In this document: in pieces, positions 22,864-32,075 of the stretch | Numbering within the stretch: the first letter of the stretch is position 1 | Layout: the number at the start of each line of letters is the position of its first letter | Origin: Candidatus Parcubacteria bacterium | Lineage (GTDB): Bacteria > Patescibacteriota > Patescibacteriia > Patescibacteriales > UBA12075 | Reading direction: 5' to 3' | DNA length: 32,602 bases | NCBI GenBank assembly: GCA_023142215.1 | Contig: JAGLJW010000016.1 | Location: 1-32,602 of the forward strand | The notes under the pieces: model-generated | What the model was told of the DNA's origin: nothing | Databases searched by the model: none | Seen by the model: the letters and a program-made list of their open reading frames with translations, nothing else | Made by a program: the position numbers and the translations under genes

Positions 22864-23181
22864 CTAGTTGTTTCCTGTGCGAATGTTGTGCCAATTTAGA
22901 AATTGATCAAATAGGATTACTTGAGTGTCATCAAAAGAAGCTATAAGGTTTTTTGCACTTTTTTTACTATTCTCACTAATACAATTCTGACAGAATTTAT
23001 CTTTATCTTTTTTTGAGCCAGGTGTTTTCTTTCCGCATTGTAAACAAATAATTTCCCACGATGCCAAGTTTAGCATTAACCTCAAACACTTTAAACAATA
23101 TTCATGATTTTTTGGAACAAGTTTAATTTTTTTACATTTTGAGCATGTTTTTTTGTAAGGTGCTAATATTTCTTCTTTCAT
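22864..23181 (-). CDS. small zinc-ribbon-like protein with four CxxC motifs
   Basis: CSKCKK, CLKCLR, CLQCGKK, CQNC; strong SD (TGGAGGT) upstream of ATG. Confidence 0.75.
   Translation of the reverse strand: MKEEILAPYKKTCSKCKKIKLVPKNHEYCLKCLRLMLNLASWEIICLQCGKKTPGSKKDKDKFCQNCISENSKKSAKNLIASFDDTQVILFDQFLNWHNIRTGNN
23047..23047. other. placeholder within zinc-ribbon ORF: none
   Basis: No separate feature is claimed here; disregard. Confidence 0.
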
Positions 23182-23275: not shown

Positions 23276-23299
23276 TAGGGGTTTAACAAAAAATACAAA

Positions 23300-23326
23300 A
23301 AAGGTTTTACGTTATGTAAAACCTTT
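23300..23326 (-). terminator. terminator of ncRNA copy 1
   Basis: Minus strand AAAGGTTTTAC-ATAAC-GTAAAACCTTTTTTG. Confidence 0.75.
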
Positions 23327-23357
23327 CTGTTATTATAAAACTTTTTGGAAAAGAAAA

Positions 23358-23513
23358 AAGGATTGAGTGTTTGTGTTGGTTGAAGTTTTGTTTGGGTTTG
23401 TGTATAGAGTTTTTTGTTGGTGAGTATGGTTTTAATTCTTTATTAAGAAGCAAAACTATACTCATCAGCTCTAAACTCTATTCCCGTAAAACTTTAATCA
23501 ACTCTCAATCCTT
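23358..23513 (-). ncRNA. candidate structured ncRNA, copy 1
   Basis: Rod-like self-complementary 156-nt body with paired ends AAGGATTGAG/CTCAATCCTT, promoter TTGACA-16-TATTAT upstream, terminator downstream; near-identical paralog at 24593-24749. Confidence 0.7.
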
Positions 23514-23519
23514 ATTAAT

Positions 23520-23547
23520 ATAATAGCATATAGAAATAATATGTCAA
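23520..23547 (-). promoter_or_regulatory. promoter of ncRNA copy 1 (TTGACA-16-TGCTATTAT extended -10)
   Basis: + strand ATAATA 23520-23525 (plus GCA) and TGTCAA 23542-23547; predicted TSS coincides with start of the paired 5' arm. Confidence 0.75.
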
Positions 23548-23640
23548 ATGACTAATGTTAGTTTAAACTCTATTAAATAGTTGAAAAATATTATAAAATA
23601 AAAAAGTTATCCACAGATAGAATTAATATAAAACATAAAA

Positions 23641-23663
23641 AACTATTAAAAAATAGTTCTTTT
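23641..23663 (-). terminator. terminator downstream of 23806..24441
   Basis: AACTATT-AAAA-AATAGTT with flanking A/T runs. Confidence 0.5.
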
Positions 23664-23805
23664 TGTTAAAGTAATTCTACTTACACTCAATATTTCAGTG
23701 GACTGTGCTTGTTTGAAGCTGAGCTTCAACGAGGTGGAGATGAAAACTGATAGTTGTCATTCTAGCTTTTTTAAGAAGAACAGGGGATACTATTTTGTTC
23801 CAAGA

Positions 23806-24441
23806 TTATAAAATATCTTTATAGTTATTAAGCATATCAATATAAGTATGCTCAATTTTTTTAACCAGTACTTCATCTTTTAATAATTCTTCTGTTTTAG
23901 TTTTGATCTTAATACCAAGTTTTTCGTTTATACCAAGAGCAAGCCACATATTAAAATTATCCTCAACTGTTATTTTCTTTTTATCTTTGTATAAATCAAC
24001 CATTATTTGGTTGTATTTTTTTATTTCATTAATATTTTCTCCATTTGGGTTGTACGAAAAAGCGAGATATTTTAAATATTTTTGAATTGGAAATTGTTGC
24101 ATATCATTCATGTCTTGGATTATTTTCATTGAAGTTGATATTATCCATCTTTGTTCATCATATCCGTTATGCTTTTTAGAAAAGAACTTTGGTAATACTC
24201 TTTTTTTCATTCGGTTTTGCATTATATCGCAAATTTGATGAACTTGCCAACCTTTCTTAAAATCATCTTTAGCGAATGCTGGATTTAAAATATCATCGTT
24301 GTGAGTCAATTCCCTGTCTATTTTTGTAACATAATGACTATCAGGGTAAATTGTTCCTGATATATATTTTTCTATATCTTGCACTTGATACTTGTTTTTT
24401 AAATCAAGAGCAAAGCGAATATGTGTTGCTTCTAATGACAT
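23806..24441 (-). CDS. hypothetical protein, possible His/Asp-rich metal-dependent hydrolase
   Basis: 211-aa ORF: ATHIRFALDL...SGTIYPDSHYVTKIDRELTHND...GWQVHQICD; family assignment by eye only. Confidence 0.6.
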   Translation of the reverse strand: MSLEATHIRFALDLKNKYQVQDIEKYISGTIYPDSHYVTKIDRELTHNDDILNPAFAKDDFKKGWQVHQICDIMQNRMKKRVLPKFFSKKHNGYDEQRWIISTSMKIIQDMNDMQQFPIQKYLKYLAFSYNPNGENINEIKKYNQIMVDLYKDKKKITVEDNFNMWLALGINEKLGIKIKTKTEELLKDEVLVKKIEHTYIDMLNNYKDIL

Positions 24442-24539
24442 ATTATAATTTTATCATAAAAGTTAGAATTAGTCCCGTTATTATAAAAAAAATACGTCAA
24501 ATGTAATTTTTTGTAATTTTGTGGGACAATAGTATACAA

Positions 24540-24563
24540 AAAAAGGCTTATATAAGCCTTTTT
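24540..24563 (-). terminator. terminator of ncRNA copy 2
   Basis: Perfect palindrome AAAAAGGCTTATATAAGCCTTTTT, T-run on minus strand. Confidence 0.75.
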
Positions 24564-24592
24564 ATTAAAATAAAATTTTTTAAAAAAGAAAA

Positions 24593-24749
24593 AAGGATTG
24601 AGTGTTTGTGTTGGTTGAAGTTTTGTTTGGGTTTGTGTATAGAGTTTTTTGTTGGTGAGTATGGTTTTAATTCTTTAAGCAAGAAGCAAAACTATACTCA
24701 TCAGCTCTAAACTCTATTCCCGTAAAACTTTAATCAACTCTCAATCCTT
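24593..24749 (-). ncRNA. candidate structured ncRNA, copy 2
   Basis: Body identical to copy 1 except the apical loop; same promoter; different terminator sequence. Confidence 0.7.
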
Positions 24750-24755
24750 ATTAAT

Positions 24756-24783
24756 ATAATAGCATATAGAAATAATATGTCAA
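24756..24783 (-). promoter_or_regulatory. promoter of ncRNA copy 2 (TTGACA-16-TGCTATTAT)
   Basis: + strand ATAATA 24756-24761 and TGTCAA 24778-24783. Confidence 0.75.
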
Positions 24784-25073
24784 ATGACCAATGTTAGTTA
24801 AAATTCTATTGAATAATTGAATAATATTATAAAATAAAAAAGTTATCAACAAATAGAATTAAGATGAAAGACAAAACAGGAAGAAGTATTAATTAATTTT
24901 CTTTCTGAATTACGATAAGGATGATATGTTTTGTATTATTTTTCGTGTATTTTATTATACTAATTTCAGCAGGTATTGACTTATCCCCCATAATCCCCTA
25001 TAATACCTTATATAACTAATAAGAGTTATTCGTTTGAATCCATTGCTACGAATGCGGAATATGCGAATAAATA

Positions 25074-26153
25074 ATGAATATGATTAAAGAAAATAAATTA
25101 ATAGCGAGATTAAATTGGAAAAAATTTGAAGATACACAAAAAATACAGCGATTGCTTACAGAGATTGATGAGCTTAAAGGCAGATGGATTGCGGGGGTGA
25201 AATTATCACCGCAGATTTTAAATAAATTAAAAAAATCTGTAGTTATCACTTCCGCTGGAGCTAGTACTCGTATTGAGGGTGCTGAATTATCTGATGAGGA
25301 GATAGAAAAATTGTTTAAAGGTTTGAAAATTAAAAAATTTACCACCAGAGACGAACAGGAGGTTGCTGGTTATAAAGAATTGTTGGAAAATATTTTTAAT
25401 TCTTGGGAGAAAATAAAATTTAACGAAAATTCTATTAAACATTTTCATCAAGAATTATTAAAGTATTCCGAAAAAGATAAAAAACATTTGGGTAATTATA
25501 AATTTGGGAGCAATAGAGTTGAGGCGATTGATGCTAGTGGTAAAGTAATTGGTATTGTTTTTGAACCAACTCCTCCGCATCTAACTCCTAAAGAAATGTC
25601 TGAATTAATTGAATGGACTCAAAATGCCTTTAAAGAGAATTTAATTCATCCATTGCTTATCATTGGAAATTTTGTGTTAGAGTTTTTGGCAATTCATCCT
25701 TTTCAAGATGGTAATGGTCGATCTTCACGTGTGTTAACAAATTTCTTAATGCTTCAGTCGGGATATGAATATATGCCGTATGTTTCGCATGAGAAATTTA
25801 TAGAAGACAATAAAGTAGATTATTATTTAGCACTTAAAAAAAGTCAGGGAGATTGGAAAAAACGTAAGAGCGATATTGTACATTGGATGATTTTCTTTTT
25901 AACAATTTTACTTGAACAGGCAAAGATGGCGATTAAAATTAATGAGAGTGAAAGAATAGAACCTTTCCTGTCAGAAAAGCAATTAAAAGTATGGCAGTAT
26001 TTTGGGGAGCATGAATATGTTACTTCAAAAGATATTCGGGAGAACTTAGGAATCAAAGAAGCTACAGCGTTGCAGATTTTGAATAAGCTTTTGGAAATGA
26101 AAAAGATTGAGAGGCTTGGAATGGGAAGAGGTGTTCGTTATAGGAAAATATAA
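25074..26153 (+). CDS. Fic domain protein with N-terminal inhibitory helix and C-terminal winged helix
   Basis: HPFQDGNGRSSR matches HPFx(D/E)GNGRxxR; upstream STRIEG matches inhibitory motif (S/T)xxxE(G/N); C-terminal wHTH-like VTSKDIRENLGIKEATALQILNKLLEMKKIER. Confidence 0.94.
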   Translation: MNMIKENKLIARLNWKKFEDTQKIQRLLTEIDELKGRWIAGVKLSPQILNKLKKSVVITSAGASTRIEGAELSDEEIEKLFKGLKIKKFTTRDEQEVAGYKELLENIFNSWEKIKFNENSIKHFHQELLKYSEKDKKHLGNYKFGSNRVEAIDASGKVIGIVFEPTPPHLTPKEMSELIEWTQNAFKENLIHPLLIIGNFVLEFLAIHPFQDGNGRSSRVLTNFLMLQSGYEYMPYVSHEKFIEDNKVDYYLALKKSQGDWKKRKSDIVHWMIFFLTILLEQAKMAIKINESERIEPFLSEKQLKVWQYFGEHEYVTSKDIRENLGIKEATALQILNKLLEMKKIERLGMGRGVRYRKI

Positions 26154-26175
26154 AAAATGTATAAATTATAAATAA

Positions 26176-29100
26176 ATGTCTATTAGAAAGAAACAAGTTA
26201 ATTTAACTACAAAATTAAAAGTTTACATTAACTGTGGTGGTAAGTGTGGTTTTCCAAACTGCAAAGAACATTTGGTTGAGGAAGATAGCATAGTAGGAGA
26301 TATAGCTCATATAAAAGCAAGAAGTGATGGAGGCCCAAGAGGTAATATTGATTTATCGGAAGAAAAAAGAAATTCACCAGATAATTTGATAGCCTTGTGC
26401 AAGAAGCATCACAAGATAATAGATGACCATCCAGATAAATATAGTGTCGAAGATATGGAAAAATGGAAGAATGATATAGAGGAATGGGCCATAAAATCAC
26501 CTGAAAAAACTGAGTTTGGTAAAAAACTAATATTAATAATGTTGTCTGAGTTGGAAAAAGAATTAGATAGAGGTAATGGAAAGTATGTACTTAAAACCAT
26601 TCAATCAATTAAGATTATCTCAGAAACTCTGGAGGATGATAGCGTTAATAGTGAGCTTGAAATATTAAAGGCAAGAGTCAAACAAAGTTTAGAAGACGTG
26701 AGTGAGGCCAAGAAACTATTAAAAAGCATTTCCAAACTTTATCCCAAAAATATTAAATCTATTCTTTATTTAGCTGAAATTTTTTTAAATGAGGGCGACT
26801 ACGATAAAAATGAAGAGTTATTAAAACAAGCTAAGAAGATAGATAAAAATCATTGGCTTTTTGTTATTGAACAATTGATTAGGAAGCTTCGTTTAAACCA
26901 AAGTATTGATACAACAAAAATTTATGAAAATGATTTTCCCAAAAATGAAAAACAAAAATCTATCTACTATCGTATTTATTCTCATTTTTATCAAAAAGAT
27001 AAAAATTATACAAAAGCTGATGAGTTTATAGAAAAATCAATTAAACTATATCCATGCTCATTTTCTAGCTTTAATACTAAGTTAGCTTTCAGTTTAGAGA
27101 GATTAGTTGAAAAAGGTTTTCCTCTTAAACATATAGAAAAGGCGGAGGAGATATTAAATCAAATTAATGAAATAGAAATAGAAAATAGTAATTGGGATGA
27201 TTTATATATTAGCAGTAAAACTATTTTAGAGTTTAGAAAGTTTTATATTTATGTAGTTCAGCAAAACTATAAAAAGATTATTTATGCTGGCAAAAAACTT
27301 GTTGACCTAATAATGCAATGCTCATTTGATTTAGATGTAGATAATTTTTTAAATTTACTTTTAACGCATTATCGTCCAGAAAAAGAAGATTTTGAGAAAA
27401 TTATTAAATACTTATCAGATAAAAACATCACTTATGATCTTGCAAAATCTTTGGCTTTTCAATTTTGTGAAAGGGGTAAATTATTTGCTGATGGCAAAAA
27501 GTTTTTATCTGCAAAGAATGAAAAAATTAAAGATTTAATTTTACACATAGAAGCAGGGAAGAAAAATGAAGTAATTGATTTTTTGAAAAAAGATTTACAG
27601 TTAATGTTAACGTTTGCAAATTGTTTAAAAGATAATCCTAGTTTGAGGAAAGATATAATTGACAATATACCAGACGATGACAACATCCAAAAAGAAAAAA
27701 TTTATCTATTATATTACTCTGATATAGAAGAATATAATAACGCCTTTAAAATCGTGCAAAACATAGAGTTTGAAAATGCAAATTATCTTGATTGCGAAAT
27801 ATCTTTAAAAGTGGTTCGAGAAAAACAAGCTTGGGAAATGGAGGTAAAAATTTTAGATAGATTATTCAAGTTAGAAAAAAATGAAAGAAAACAATTGACA
27901 TATAAGTTAGACCAATTTACTGCTTGTATGAAGATGGAAGATTATTTAGAGGTAATAAACATAGGCAAATATTTGTTAAGCAATCCCCAAACTTTTGAGT
28001 TAATAGATGAAAAGAATCAAGAACTATTGTTAGGACAAACAATAACCGCTTATTTACAAAGAAGCGAAGAAAAAGATGCCCTGAGGTTGTTTCAGAAATA
28101 TCCTAACATCATTAAAAGTTTTGAATTTGTTATTTCTGTAGAAGCTGAAGTTTATTTAAAAAATGAAGATTATAAAAAAGCATTATTGTCATTGTGTAAT
28201 GGAATTAAAAAAATCAGGAAGCCTACTAAAGAACAATACGGATATTTATTTTTTCAATTCGTCCAATTAAGCAATTCTGGTGTTGCTAAAATTGAAACAC
28301 TTGAAAAAATTACAAACAATTTTTTTGTAAAATTTAAAAACCAAGAGCAGTGGTATTATGTTGGTGATGAAGATGAGTTGGATGCTACTAAAATTAACTC
28401 CGCAAATAATAAATATAATTTGCTTATTGGTAAAAAGGTAAATGATAAAATAGAGTTTCCGGAGGATAAATATCAAACCAATAAAGAAGAAAGAAAGATT
28501 GAAAATATTTTAAATTTAGAGGCTTATATAAACTGGAAAGCTCACGATAGTTTTTTTAGTTTGTCAAAGCAAGGTAGGTGGGATATGGGAGTAGCAATTG
28601 AAGTGCCAAATGATGAAAATGGTGGTATAGATGTTAATAATGTAATAAATTTTATTAAAGACCAGCAAGAAAGAGGTAAAGAATTTTTTGGAGGCTATTG
28701 TTCGAATAATTACCCTTTTGCATTCTTGGCTTTAAGTGAGGGAGGGGTGACTAATGCAATTGGTAAAATCACAAAAGAAAATAAAGGGTTTATACGATTT
28801 TCTGATGGTTCAGTTCAGGATATAAATAAACAAGGGCAAGTAGCTGAAAAAATAATAGAGAATTCGGAAGTGTTTTTAGACGGCACAACAGCTCTCTTTT
28901 TAGCTGAAACAGGTTTATTGAAAAAAATAAAACCCTTCATTCCAAATTTAAAAGTGCCTCAATCGGTTATCACCTTTTTATTTAAAACTTTGGAGAAATT
29001 TAATATTACACCTGGACAGATTGGTCATATGGGATGTGTTGATGACAAATTAGTATCTGATAAGATTGATAAAGCAAAAAACGAAAGGATAAAAAACAAC

Positions 29101-29820
29101 TTTAAACAAAGTATAGAGATTTTAGAAAAAGACAAAAACAATATTTTCTCCATTTCTCAAGCAAATAAATCTGAACATTTTTCAGAAAGCAATATTGCTC
29201 CTGAATTAACAGACGCTTGTATTTTAGCACAAAAAAATAATGCCATTATAATAACCGAAGATTTCTTATATTTGCAAGCCAATAATTTGCAAACTAAAAA
29301 GGGCATACCAGAATATTGCTCACTATTTTCTATAGCCAAAAAGTTGCTTGAGAAGAATAAAATATCTTTTGATGACTACTTAAATATTTATTCCTATCTA
29401 TCTTCTTATAGATGCAGATTTTTAGATTTAAACGCAGACCTAATGATTAAATCTGTTTTTAGAGAAGTTGATAATATCAAATTTGAACCTCAAAAACTAC
29501 ACTATTTAAATCTTAATTTAACATTAACGGAAGAGTATGGGGTTAAACCAGAAAATGCCATAACTGTATTGAGTGAATTTATTTCAAGAATTATAGTGGC
29601 AAATATTGTCACCTTAGAAAATGTAAAAGAAATTTATGAGATTGTTTTGATTTCATCTTTATTTAAAGGGGAAAAGGATAATTGTTCAGCTTTATTAGAA
29701 AAATGTGAGAAGACGATAGTTGGATATTTTGAAAAGTATCATCTTTATTCTATTCCTGATTATACAAAAGAAAAAATTGCAGAATTGGAAAAACAACTAA
29801 ACGTACACACTATTTCGTAA
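26176..29820 (+). CDS. large HNH - TPR-like - PIN-like protein (putative defence nuclease)
   Basis: N-term CGFPNC...GDIAHIKARSDGGPRGN...LIALCKKHHKIID (HNH); central helical TPR-like repeats; C-term VFLDGTTALFLAETGLL...ELTDACILAQKNNAIIITEDFLYL (PIN-like acidic residues). Confidence 0.75.
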   Translation: MSIRKKQVNLTTKLKVYINCGGKCGFPNCKEHLVEEDSIVGDIAHIKARSDGGPRGNIDLSEEKRNSPDNLIALCKKHHKIIDDHPDKYSVEDMEKWKNDIEEWAIKSPEKTEFGKKLILIMLSELEKELDRGNGKYVLKTIQSIKIISETLEDDSVNSELEILKARVKQSLEDVSEAKKLLKSISKLYPKNIKSILYLAEIFLNEGDYDKNEELLKQAKKIDKNHWLFVIEQLIRKLRLNQSIDTTKIYENDFPKNEKQKSIYYRIYSHFYQKDKNYTKADEFIEKSIKLYPCSFSSFNTKLAFSLERLVEKGFPLKHIEKAEEILNQINEIEIENSNWDDLYISSKTILEFRKFYIYVVQQNYKKIIYAGKKLVDLIMQCSFDLDVDNFLNLLLTHYRPEKEDFEKIIKYLSDKNITYDLAKSLAFQFCERGKLFADGKKFLSAKNEKIKDLILHIEAGKKNEVIDFLKKDLQLMLTFANCLKDNPSLRKDIIDNIPDDDNIQKEKIYLLYYSDIEEYNNAFKIVQNIEFENANYLDCEISLKVVREKQAWEMEVKILDRLFKLEKNERKQLTYKLDQFTACMKMEDYLEVINIGKYLLSNPQTFELIDEKNQELLLGQTITAYLQRSEEKDALRLFQKYPNIIKSFEFVISVEAEVYLKNEDYKKALLSLCNGIKKIRKPTKEQYGYLFFQFVQLSNSGVAKIETLEKITNNFFVKFKNQEQWYYVGDEDELDATKINSANNKYNLLIGKKVNDKIEFPEDKYQTNKEERKIENILNLEAYINWKAHDSFFSLSKQGRWDMGVAIEVPNDENGGIDVNNVINFIKDQQERGKEFFGGYCSNNYPFAFLALSEGGVTNAIGKITKENKGFIRFSDGSVQDINKQGQVAEKIIENSEVFLDGTTALFLAETGLLKKIKPFIPNLKVPQSVITFLFKTLEKFNITPGQIGHMGCVDDKLVSDKIDKAKNERIKNNFKQSIEILEKDKNNIFSISQANKSEHFSESNIAPELTDACILAQKNNAIIITEDFLYLQANNLQTKKGIPEYCSLFSIAKKLLEKNKISFDDYLNIYSYLSSYRCRFLDLNADLMIKSVFREVDNIKFEPQKLHYLNLNLTLTEEYGVKPENAITVLSEFISRIIVANIVTLENVKEIYEIVLISSLFKGEKDNCSALLEKCEKTIVGYFEKYHLYSIPDYTKEKIAELEKQLNVHTIS

Positions 29821-29875
29821 AATAAAAAAGAAATTATTTTTTAGTAAATACGATATGTCCCGTTACAAAATTAAG

Positions 29876-30115
29876 CTATTTCTGCTTTAATGAAAAATAA
29901 AAGAATTTTTCATCTTTTAACTCCATAGCTAATACATCTTCATAATCCGTATCTAGTAAATATTCATTCTCTTCTATAAAATTATCAAAAGCCTTTTTTT
30001 CATCTTCTCCGCTAGCAGTTCCAAGCACCTGTAAATTTTCAATATCAGGCATATTTGATTCGGTATTTGGTTGAAAAGTATAACCCTCTTGGGTTAAAAA
30101 AATAAAATGTCTCAT
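29876..30115 (-). CDS. small acidic hypothetical protein
   Basis: 79-aa ORF 4 nt after the upstream ORF in a compact minus-strand operon. Confidence 0.65.
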   Translation of the reverse strand: MRHFIFLTQEGYTFQPNTESNMPDIENLQVLGTASGEDEKKAFDNFIEENEYLLDTDYEDVLAMELKDEKFFYFSLKQK

Positions 30116-30119
30116 AAAT

Positions 30120-30317
30120 TTAGTTTAGTTTATATCTTCCTCGAGAAACGAAACTTAAATAGCCTTTATCTTGAAGTAATTGTAATTGTTGTCTAATTTT
30201 ATCTTTAACGTGATTATTGTCAGGATGTTTTTTAACCCAATCTTCAGTTAAAACATGAATCTTTTGGGAGTTGCTTTTGTATTTATCTGCTATTTGGTTA
30301 TTTAAGTTTGTTTGCAT
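30120..30317 (-). CDS. winged-helix protein resembling the C-terminal domain of DpnI/Dam-replacing family
   Basis: YKSNSQKIHVLTEDWVKKH...IRQQLQLLQDKGYLSFVSRGRYKL. Confidence 0.7.
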   Translation of the reverse strand: MQTNLNNQIADKYKSNSQKIHVLTEDWVKKHPDNNHVKDKIRQQLQLLQDKGYLSFVSRGRYKLN

Positions 30318-30326
30318 AACTTGTTT

Positions 30327-30857
30327 TTATTTACCTTCCATTATCTGAAGAATATCATCTAATATTTTAATCGTTTTTCTTTTTTCTTCAAGCAACTCTT
30401 TCTTAAAAAGATTATTATATTCATAAGCTTCTTTTCTTTGCCTTTTATTTATATATTCAGACTCAAACATTTTTTTACATTCTGGAGAATCGTTGCTTAT
30501 TTTACTTGAGCCTAGAATAGATAAAAGTAAATGTTCAAGACAGGGAGTGTTTTCTATCAGCTCAATTTTCTTACTTCCAGCGATTTTTCTTGCTTCTTCA
30601 ATTTCGCCTTTTGGTTTGTCATTATCCAAAACAACAACTCTTCTATCAAATTCTCCTAACACTCTACTGGCATCAATTACAATATTAGCTGAATTTCCAC
30701 CCCTGCCTTTTCTAACAGTAATAGCTACGTTAGTATCACAACAGTATAACTTTTTTAAATGCTTTAAAAACATTTGCTCATTCATACCTTCGCCAAAAAT
30801 CAACAAAGTTTTATTTGCTTGGCGTCTTTTTCTTTTATATGGATTTGTTCTCGACAT
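30327..30857 (-). CDS. RloB-like (AbiLii-like) protein, TOPRIM-like residues
   Basis: NPYKRKRRQANKTLLIFGEGMNEQMFLKHLKKL...VVVLDNDKPKGEIEEARKIA...NTPCLEHLLLSIL. Confidence 0.8.
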   Translation of the reverse strand: MSRTNPYKRKRRQANKTLLIFGEGMNEQMFLKHLKKLYCCDTNVAITVRKGRGGNSANIVIDASRVLGEFDRRVVVLDNDKPKGEIEEARKIAGSKKIELIENTPCLEHLLLSILGSSKISNDSPECKKMFESEYINKRQRKEAYEYNNLFKKELLEEKRKTIKILDDILQIMEGK

Positions 30858-30860
30858 GTA

Positions 30861-32075
30861 TTATAGTTTAGGGACAGCACCGTAGGCACCAGCAATATAT
30901 TTTGAATAATAATTATCATCAGCGCGAACACCAGTAACATCATCAAGTCGCCAAGCTTCACTTTCACCTTTTTCATTTTTTTCAGTCAAAACAATTTGAT
31001 ATTTATCTAGCTTACTTAATATTTGATGACTATGACTACTAAAAAGCAATTGAGCATTTTTAGGATTAGTTTCTGGTTGCATAAATAAATCAAACAAAGC
31101 TAAAACTATTTCTGGATGCAAATTAACATCAAATTCATCTAATATTGCTGCTCCTCCGTTAGCCAAAACCAGCAAAATTGTTTTTAAGAGCACAAAAAGT
31201 TGTTTTGTTCCAGATGACTCATACTTTATTGGTATATATTTTTTTTCACCACCAAAAGTGTGTGCCACTCTAACATTGATACTTAGTCCGTTATCTTTTT
31301 TTTCTTTTTTTATTTCAAAAGAATCTAAACCAAGATCAAACTGTGATAAAAGCTTTTCGGCTTCAGCTTTAATGTGAGCATTCTTTTTCTCGCTAAAAAA
31401 ATCAAATGCTTCAATAAGTTGCTGATTAGCATTTGGAAGTAAATGGTTGCCAACCCAACCAGCTTCAATTACATTAGTTTCTATATTTTGCCAAAAATTA
31501 AATATTTCCAGACTTTTCTTGTGGTTAAATCGTGAAGCAACACTGATTATACTAGCATTAGAACGAAGAAGTTCTTCATATCCTTTTGGCAAATTAAACT
31601 TCTTGTCATCTAATTCGTACTTATTTTTTTCTTCATTCCATTTGCGAGAAAAAACTTTTTTAGTAGTTACTTTTTTAGTAGTTTTATTTTTTACTTTTAT
31701 TTCTTCTGCAATTATTTTCTTTTCATTTAAGATAAAAGTATAAACATAAATATTACCATTAATCTCAAAATCAACAGACAGTTCAGTGGATTTATTTTTA
31801 TTATTGCCAAATAAAAAAGGTTTTATTGGTAAAGGGGCATTAGGAGAGGCATTAAAAGAAGTAACTATTAACCATTTTAAAAATGGTAATATTTTTAATA
31901 GATTTGTTTTTCCAGATGCATTTGGTCCTATTACAGTTTCAATCTTTGAAAGATGAGCATCCGAGGTAGCCTGAAAATATCCATCGTTACTTGGCGCTTT
32001 ATCGTTTACTGTAAAATCTATTATAGTTAAATCTTTAAATGAATAAAAATTTTTACATGAAAATGAATGTATCAT
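30861..32075 (-). CDS. AAA15/RloA-like (AbiLi-like) ATPase
   Basis: FSCKNFYSFKDLTIIDF; Walker A IGPNASGKTNLLK; Walker B AAILDEFDVNLHPE; LLFSSHSHQIL. Confidence 0.92.
   Translation of the reverse strand: MIHSFSCKNFYSFKDLTIIDFTVNDKAPSNDGYFQATSDAHLSKIETVIGPNASGKTNLLKILPFLKWLIVTSFNASPNAPLPIKPFLFGNNKNKSTELSVDFEINGNIYVYTFILNEKKIIAEEIKVKNKTTKKVTTKKVFSRKWNEEKNKYELDDKKFNLPKGYEELLRSNASIISVASRFNHKKSLEIFNFWQNIETNVIEAGWVGNHLLPNANQQLIEAFDFFSEKKNAHIKAEAEKLLSQFDLGLDSFEIKKEKKDNGLSINVRVAHTFGGEKKYIPIKYESSGTKQLFVLLKTILLVLANGGAAILDEFDVNLHPEIVLALFDLFMQPETNPKNAQLLFSSHSHQILSKLDKYQIVLTEKNEKGESEAWRLDDVTGVRADDNYYSKYIAGAYGAVPKL

Follow-up and report, generated by a model that had tools for sequence, protein, structure and literature searches.

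A predicted family of rod-shaped RNAs in one class of Patescibacteria, with a DnaA-box sequence upstream of the promoter

The window (the whole analysed stretch of DNA, 32,602 nucleotides, corresponding to contig C8 of a genome with 92 contigs and 1.19 Mb) carries two genes of a new family of standalone structured RNA, whose promoters follow an unusual logic. As shown by comparison between genomes, the predicted RNA gene is under selection for a rod-like fold and for a phased upstream site that reads as a DnaA box. Within the genomes searched, the predicted family is confined to one class of Patescibacteria, which are ultra-small bacteria. In our reading, each copy is the standalone gene of a structured RNA that acts in trans; putatively, it is switched by DnaA or a factor that shares its specificity, and the RNA probably serves as a protein-binding scaffold. 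We give this reading a probability of roughly 45%.

An earlier note on this DNA had proposed two autonomous, paralogous structured RNA genes of unknown family. Compensatory changes in homologues and the lack of a matching Rfam family support that proposal, and the two minus-strand bodies of about 156 nt were found at the positions given there. Both promoters scored 11 of 12 matches, with TG preceding the -10, and helices P1-P5 were located as described in both copies. Each body had its own promoter and its own terminator, as a standalone noncoding RNA should, the terminator hairpin of copy b being recognized by eye. In alignment A1, the apical loop was the sole difference between the two bodies, and the conserved unit included the terminator region and the promoter and reached as far as an element, TGTGGATAAC, about 100 nt before the RNA start. 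The features are as follows (positions in the window).

23607-23615, minus strand: DnaA-box sequence TGTGGATAA of copy a, starting 68 nt before the -35; homologues keep the box
23520-23547, minus strand: promoter of copy a, TTGACA, 16 nt, extended -10 TGCTATTAT; kept in the five copies and in homologues
23358-23513, minus strand: rod RNA body of copy a, from folding and covariation
23504-23513 with 23358-23367, minus strand: P1 of copy a, from the P1 duplex test in homologues
23445-23467 with 23418-23440, minus strand: P4/P5 of copy a, from covariation
23298-23328, minus strand: intrinsic terminator of copy a
24843-24851, minus strand: DnaA-box-like sequence TGTTGATAA of copy b, one mismatch, starting 68 nt before the -35
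24756-24783, minus strand: promoter of copy b, TTGACA, 16 nt, extended -10 TGCTATTAT
24593-24749, minus strand: rod RNA body of copy b, from sequence and alignment
24740-24749 with 24593-24602, minus strand: P1 of copy b
24681-24703 with 24653-24675, minus strand: P4/P5 of copy b
24540-24566, minus strand: terminator hairpin AAAAAGGCTTATATAAGCCTTTTTTT of copy b, read by eye in the sequence; the consensus scan missed it

The own genome contained a total of five copies, two on C8 and one each on C15, C29 and C58. BLAST of relatives gave three clear homologues (G009, G031, G016), many of the small DNA matches from that search being A+T-rich low-complexity sequence. The set was extended with three covariance models (R1, R2, R3) that cover the P4/P5 hairpin together with the 5' strand and the promoter. 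Acceptance of a homologue, decided by reading its sequence, required the promoter, a partner for P1 and a 3' side that was open and mostly rich in A and C. The gene was accepted in 28 further genomes, all of the same Patescibacteria class, either in the same order (G003, G007, G009, G011, G012, G016 with two in tandem, G023, G031, G034, G055) or elsewhere in the class (G125, G138, G143, G214, G218, G231, G243, G280, G285, G303, G330, G339, G346, G357, G360, G363, G369, G396). Carriers made up 11 of the 109 genomes of the order and 20 of the 384 of the class sample, with the own genome counted in both; the named hosts of homologues were mostly Candidatus Falkowbacteria.

Covariance-model searches of the phylum samples confirmed no rod RNA gene outside the class. 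Phylum-wide matches reached about 28-37 bits, and those examined were a sigma-70 promoter beside an unrelated hairpin without P1 closure. Weak matches within the class and order were rejected likewise (G002, G057, G090, G100, G147, G153, G249, G317, G361, G388, G392 and a second match in G031), and an alphaproteobacterial pattern match (L063), which had neither promoter nor hairpin, was judged to be chance. The true distribution may be wider than found, since P1 and P4 are highly variable in sequence and some members could escape the models. Second rods in tandem downstream of the first were seen in G016 (L050), G231 (L075) and G285 (L078 and L168). The second rod of G016 had no recognized promoter of its own, and the second module of G231 had seemingly lost its 5' P1 strand.

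The flanking genes, compared by eye from their protein ends, differed among genomes, and because of this diversity a cis target is unlikely. A gyrB neighbourhood (G243, G280 and G031, where the adjacent frame ends like GyrB) was considered and dropped, as other loci have different neighbours. In the window, the two minus-strand frames beside the RNA genes (23806-24441, 211 aa, and 22864-23181, 105 aa) gave no Pfam match. Defence-like genes at 25074-32075 (Fic, PIN-TPR-GreABC with HNH, RloB-like and an AAA_21 ATPase) adjoin the RNA copies, and dnaA and dnaN lie on the same contig at 15549-18093.

The question of which strand is transcribed had been raised by the earlier note, which pointed to mismatches that are A-C on the minus strand and would be G-U on the plus strand. 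That caveat was fair. The window RNA folded at -44.3 kcal/mol on the minus strand (-18.0 for shuffles, z -8.1) and better on the plus strand (-68.8, z -11.7), and the plus strand reached the lower energy in most family members. The A-C mismatch is a real alignment column, with A-C in 9 of 13 sequences, A-U in 3 and G-C in 1. We think that the better plus-strand fold is a by-product, because linkers made only of G and U find a partner almost anywhere and the corresponding minus-strand linkers, of A and C, remain unpaired. Among paired P4 columns outside the mismatch columns, minus-strand cells were G-U in 49 cases versus A-C in 21, with A-C prevailing in a few P4 columns (e.g. 119/156 of alignment A4). 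The minus strand also fits the promoter, the start position, the U tract and the terminators. Read from the sequence, this good but indirect evidence favours transcription of the minus strand.

Across the family, the predicted RNA is about 155-270 nt long, and its two ends pair to form P1. In 13 aligned sequences, 93.5% of the cells of the P4/P5 helix were paired, compared to 33-55% in slid controls with the partner shifted by 1-3 columns, and 14 of 19 pairs had changed on both sides. With 23 sequences the values were 86.3% and 34-59%. In a separate duplex prediction, all 27 loci tested closed P1, forming about 11-15 pairs with many compensated differences; this search maximized pairing and was certain to turn up some helix, so that its informative part is the position. 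The predicted start falls at the 5' strand of P1, and a U-rich stretch nearly always marks the end of the 3' strand. Compensatory change in homologues, whose absence the earlier note had named as refuting it, was extensive, in both P4/P5 and P1. P2 and P3 come from the folding of single sequences, because the alignments are imperfect between P2 and P4.

The loops of the rod are almost entirely on the 3' strand. In the main stem, 1842 unpaired bases were on the 3' strand versus 404 on the 5' strand, and energy folding of single sequences gave internal loops with 0-8 nt on their 5' side. The unpaired bases of the 3' strand were 54% A, 35% C, 9% U and 1.7% G; overall, the 5' half contained 7% C and the 3' half 5% G. 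The shortest A/C loops had a few bases and the longest was a run of 119 (G055); simple repeats occurred among them, and the window member had 31 nt unpaired on its 3' side. In G303 and G339, the 3' sides were more mixed and held small hairpins.

These loops bear on how the RNA might act. Base pairing in trans with mRNAs, the commonest mode of bacterial small RNAs, would suit a standalone gene with its own promoter and terminator. However, no conserved single-stranded seed was seen among the homologues read, in which neither the apical loops nor the A/C loops were constant, the latter differing in both length and sequence, and we regard base pairing as unlikely. Our guess of a protein-binding scaffold was made because of the missing seed, the one-sided G-free loops and the extra dose provided by copies and tandem modules.

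The element TGTGGATAAC is the reverse complement of TTATCCACA, the standard 9-mer DnaA box, plus one base. With up to one mismatch, it was present upstream in a fixed orientation at 22 of 27 loci, compared to 0.3% in shuffles, and it was exact over ten bases at 15 of the 27 (0.01% in shuffles). None of the 27 loci had the box on the opposite strand. A DnaA box near the promoter thus occurs beyond chance; three loci with upstream sequence available (G055, G007, G125) lacked it. In the own genome, the 9-mer occurred 28 times versus 14 for a reversed control.

The distance from the box to the -35 varied in steps of helical turns (16, 26, 36, 47, 58, 68, 78). The first 20 loci gave 16, 25, 26, 36, 47 (five loci), 58, 59, 67, 68 and so on, and a Rayleigh test at 10.5 bp returned p = 1.1e-4 for a phasing that had been noticed beforehand in these same data. 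Four homologues found later, with distances of 37, 58, 36 and 60, were in phase. All 24 loci together gave p = 1.0e-5, the loci being related and so non-independent, and counting each distance once gave p = 0.003. Distances of 82, 85 and 93 fitted the helical phase less well. Such a box on a fixed face of the helix suggests that the predicted RNA is made in step with chromosome replication.

The RNA might be as described and its upstream site bound by a regulator other than DnaA. The case for DnaA consists of the motif and the canonical domain IV of the DnaA encoded in the window, which leaves room for another protein; against this, the site is the standard DnaA box and is so often matched exactly over ten bases. 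We consider another regulator rather unlikely.

Similar arrangements were observed apart from the family. At L135 (G000:C63:872-880), a DnaA-box sequence lies 15 nt upstream of a perfect sigma-70 promoter, TTGACA-18-TATAAT, and is followed by palindromic repeats without a clear gene start. At L147 (G361:C44, about 1490-1670), a sigma-70 promoter has TGTGTGGATAACT 15 nt upstream of it, and after the promoter a hairpin unit, TTTTCGGCTCGTGTCCATTATCCTATTTCCCGATACGAGCCACCA, is repeated where the contig ends; this may be a further RNA with a DnaA-like box upstream. Directly upstream of the -35, many rod RNA promoters (window 23548-23570, L045, L140) carry a TTAGCTAA / CTAATATTAG motif. It also occurs at unrelated promoters of the class (G147, G317) and is perhaps a general upstream promoter element.

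In the mechanism that we propose from the motif, DnaA (a different factor with this specificity being less likely) would bind the box on the face occupied by RNA polymerase and activate the promoter as class I activators do, and RNA production would thus track DnaA activity. As a guess, the rod with its G-free single-stranded loops would then bind and titrate a protein, and extra copies (five here) and tandem modules (in three relatives, G016, G231 and G285) would raise the dose. This scheme assumes that the site is bound by DnaA and not by some other factor, and that binding activates the promoter instead of repressing it. More tentative, though possible, is its strongest form, in which a class-wide noncoding RNA under direct DnaA control through the helically phased box couples replication initiation to expression by titrating a protein with the G-free loops of the one-sided rod. 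A replication-linked RNA regulator of that kind would have no described counterpart.

The earlier note had also seen a resemblance to 6S RNA, which would mean that the rod mimics an open promoter and captures the housekeeping RNA polymerase. The length, a closing stem with a terminal hairpin, the sigma-70 promoter and the several copies would fit, and the role could be vacant, as none of the order's 111 genomes was matched by the 6S covariance model (which did match the controls, E. coli and B. subtilis). The resemblance did not hold, however: the rod RNA itself has no 6S match, energy folding of single sequences showed no central bubble open on both strands, in keeping with the excess of unpaired bases on the 3' side, and no more than 11 of the order's 109 genomes were found to have the gene. 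We find this reading improbable. Still less probable is that Rho, or another ring-shaped RNA-binding protein like it, lands on the G-free, C-containing loops and is trapped by the RNA. Rho loading sites are C-containing and G-poor, as are the unpaired 3' bases, but the loops are short in several members, that of the window included.

Rfam, with 6S among its models, contained no family matching the window genes or 20 homologous loci; searched at the gathering score and at E up to 10, it returned below-threshold matches only, mostly microRNA-type hairpins. The earlier note had named a database match to a transposon end as an outcome that would speak against it; neither Rfam nor the phage, plasmid and viral collections gave a match, and no target-site duplication stood out at the copy borders in the alignment viewed by eye. 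The least probable reading is a DNA element (a DnaA titration site, an origin-like site or a mobile hairpin repeat) with incidental transcription: a DnaA-like box beside A+T-rich DNA, five dispersed near-identical copies and a plus strand that also folds well would suit it, but each unit has a single box phased to the promoter, the predicted RNA start coincides with P1, P1 ends at the U tract, G-U exceeds A-C on the minus strand, and phage, plasmid and viral collections held no match to the rod RNA gene.

A well-supported RNA family with its own promoter logic is a concrete handle on regulation in the reduced genomes of Patescibacteria. If DnaA binds the phased box, the family would offer about two dozen natural promoters with spacing tuned by evolution, and replication control would be linked to a noncoding RNA.

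Our literature search returned nothing directly relevant on noncoding RNAs or 6S RNA of Patescibacteria, or on small RNAs activated by DnaA. Among known systems, 6S RNA (RF00013) is likewise a rod of about 160-200 nt with a closing stem, a terminal hairpin and its own gene; the rod RNA differs in lacking a match to its model, in having one-sided loops instead of a two-sided bubble, in its upstream DnaA-like box and in its patchy distribution. With the protein-titrating RNAs CsrB and CsrC, it shares a standalone gene, several copies or modules and the lack of a conserved antisense seed, but it is one long rod in which no repeated loop motif was recognized. DnaA-regulated promoters have a DnaA box upstream of a sigma-70 promoter, as does the rod RNA gene, whose product is a noncoding RNA and whose spacing varies among species by whole helical turns. 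CcnA of Caulobacter, a 182-nt noncoding RNA tied to replication and the cell cycle, is similar as a small replication-linked RNA with DnaA boxes, which were reported inside its gene (PMC8959179). That gene is located at the origin, with CtrA as its presumed activator, and its RNA acts on the ctrA and gcrA mRNAs (PMC8959179). By description, the rod RNA is set apart from it as a Patescibacteria gene found at varied places, with one phased box upstream.
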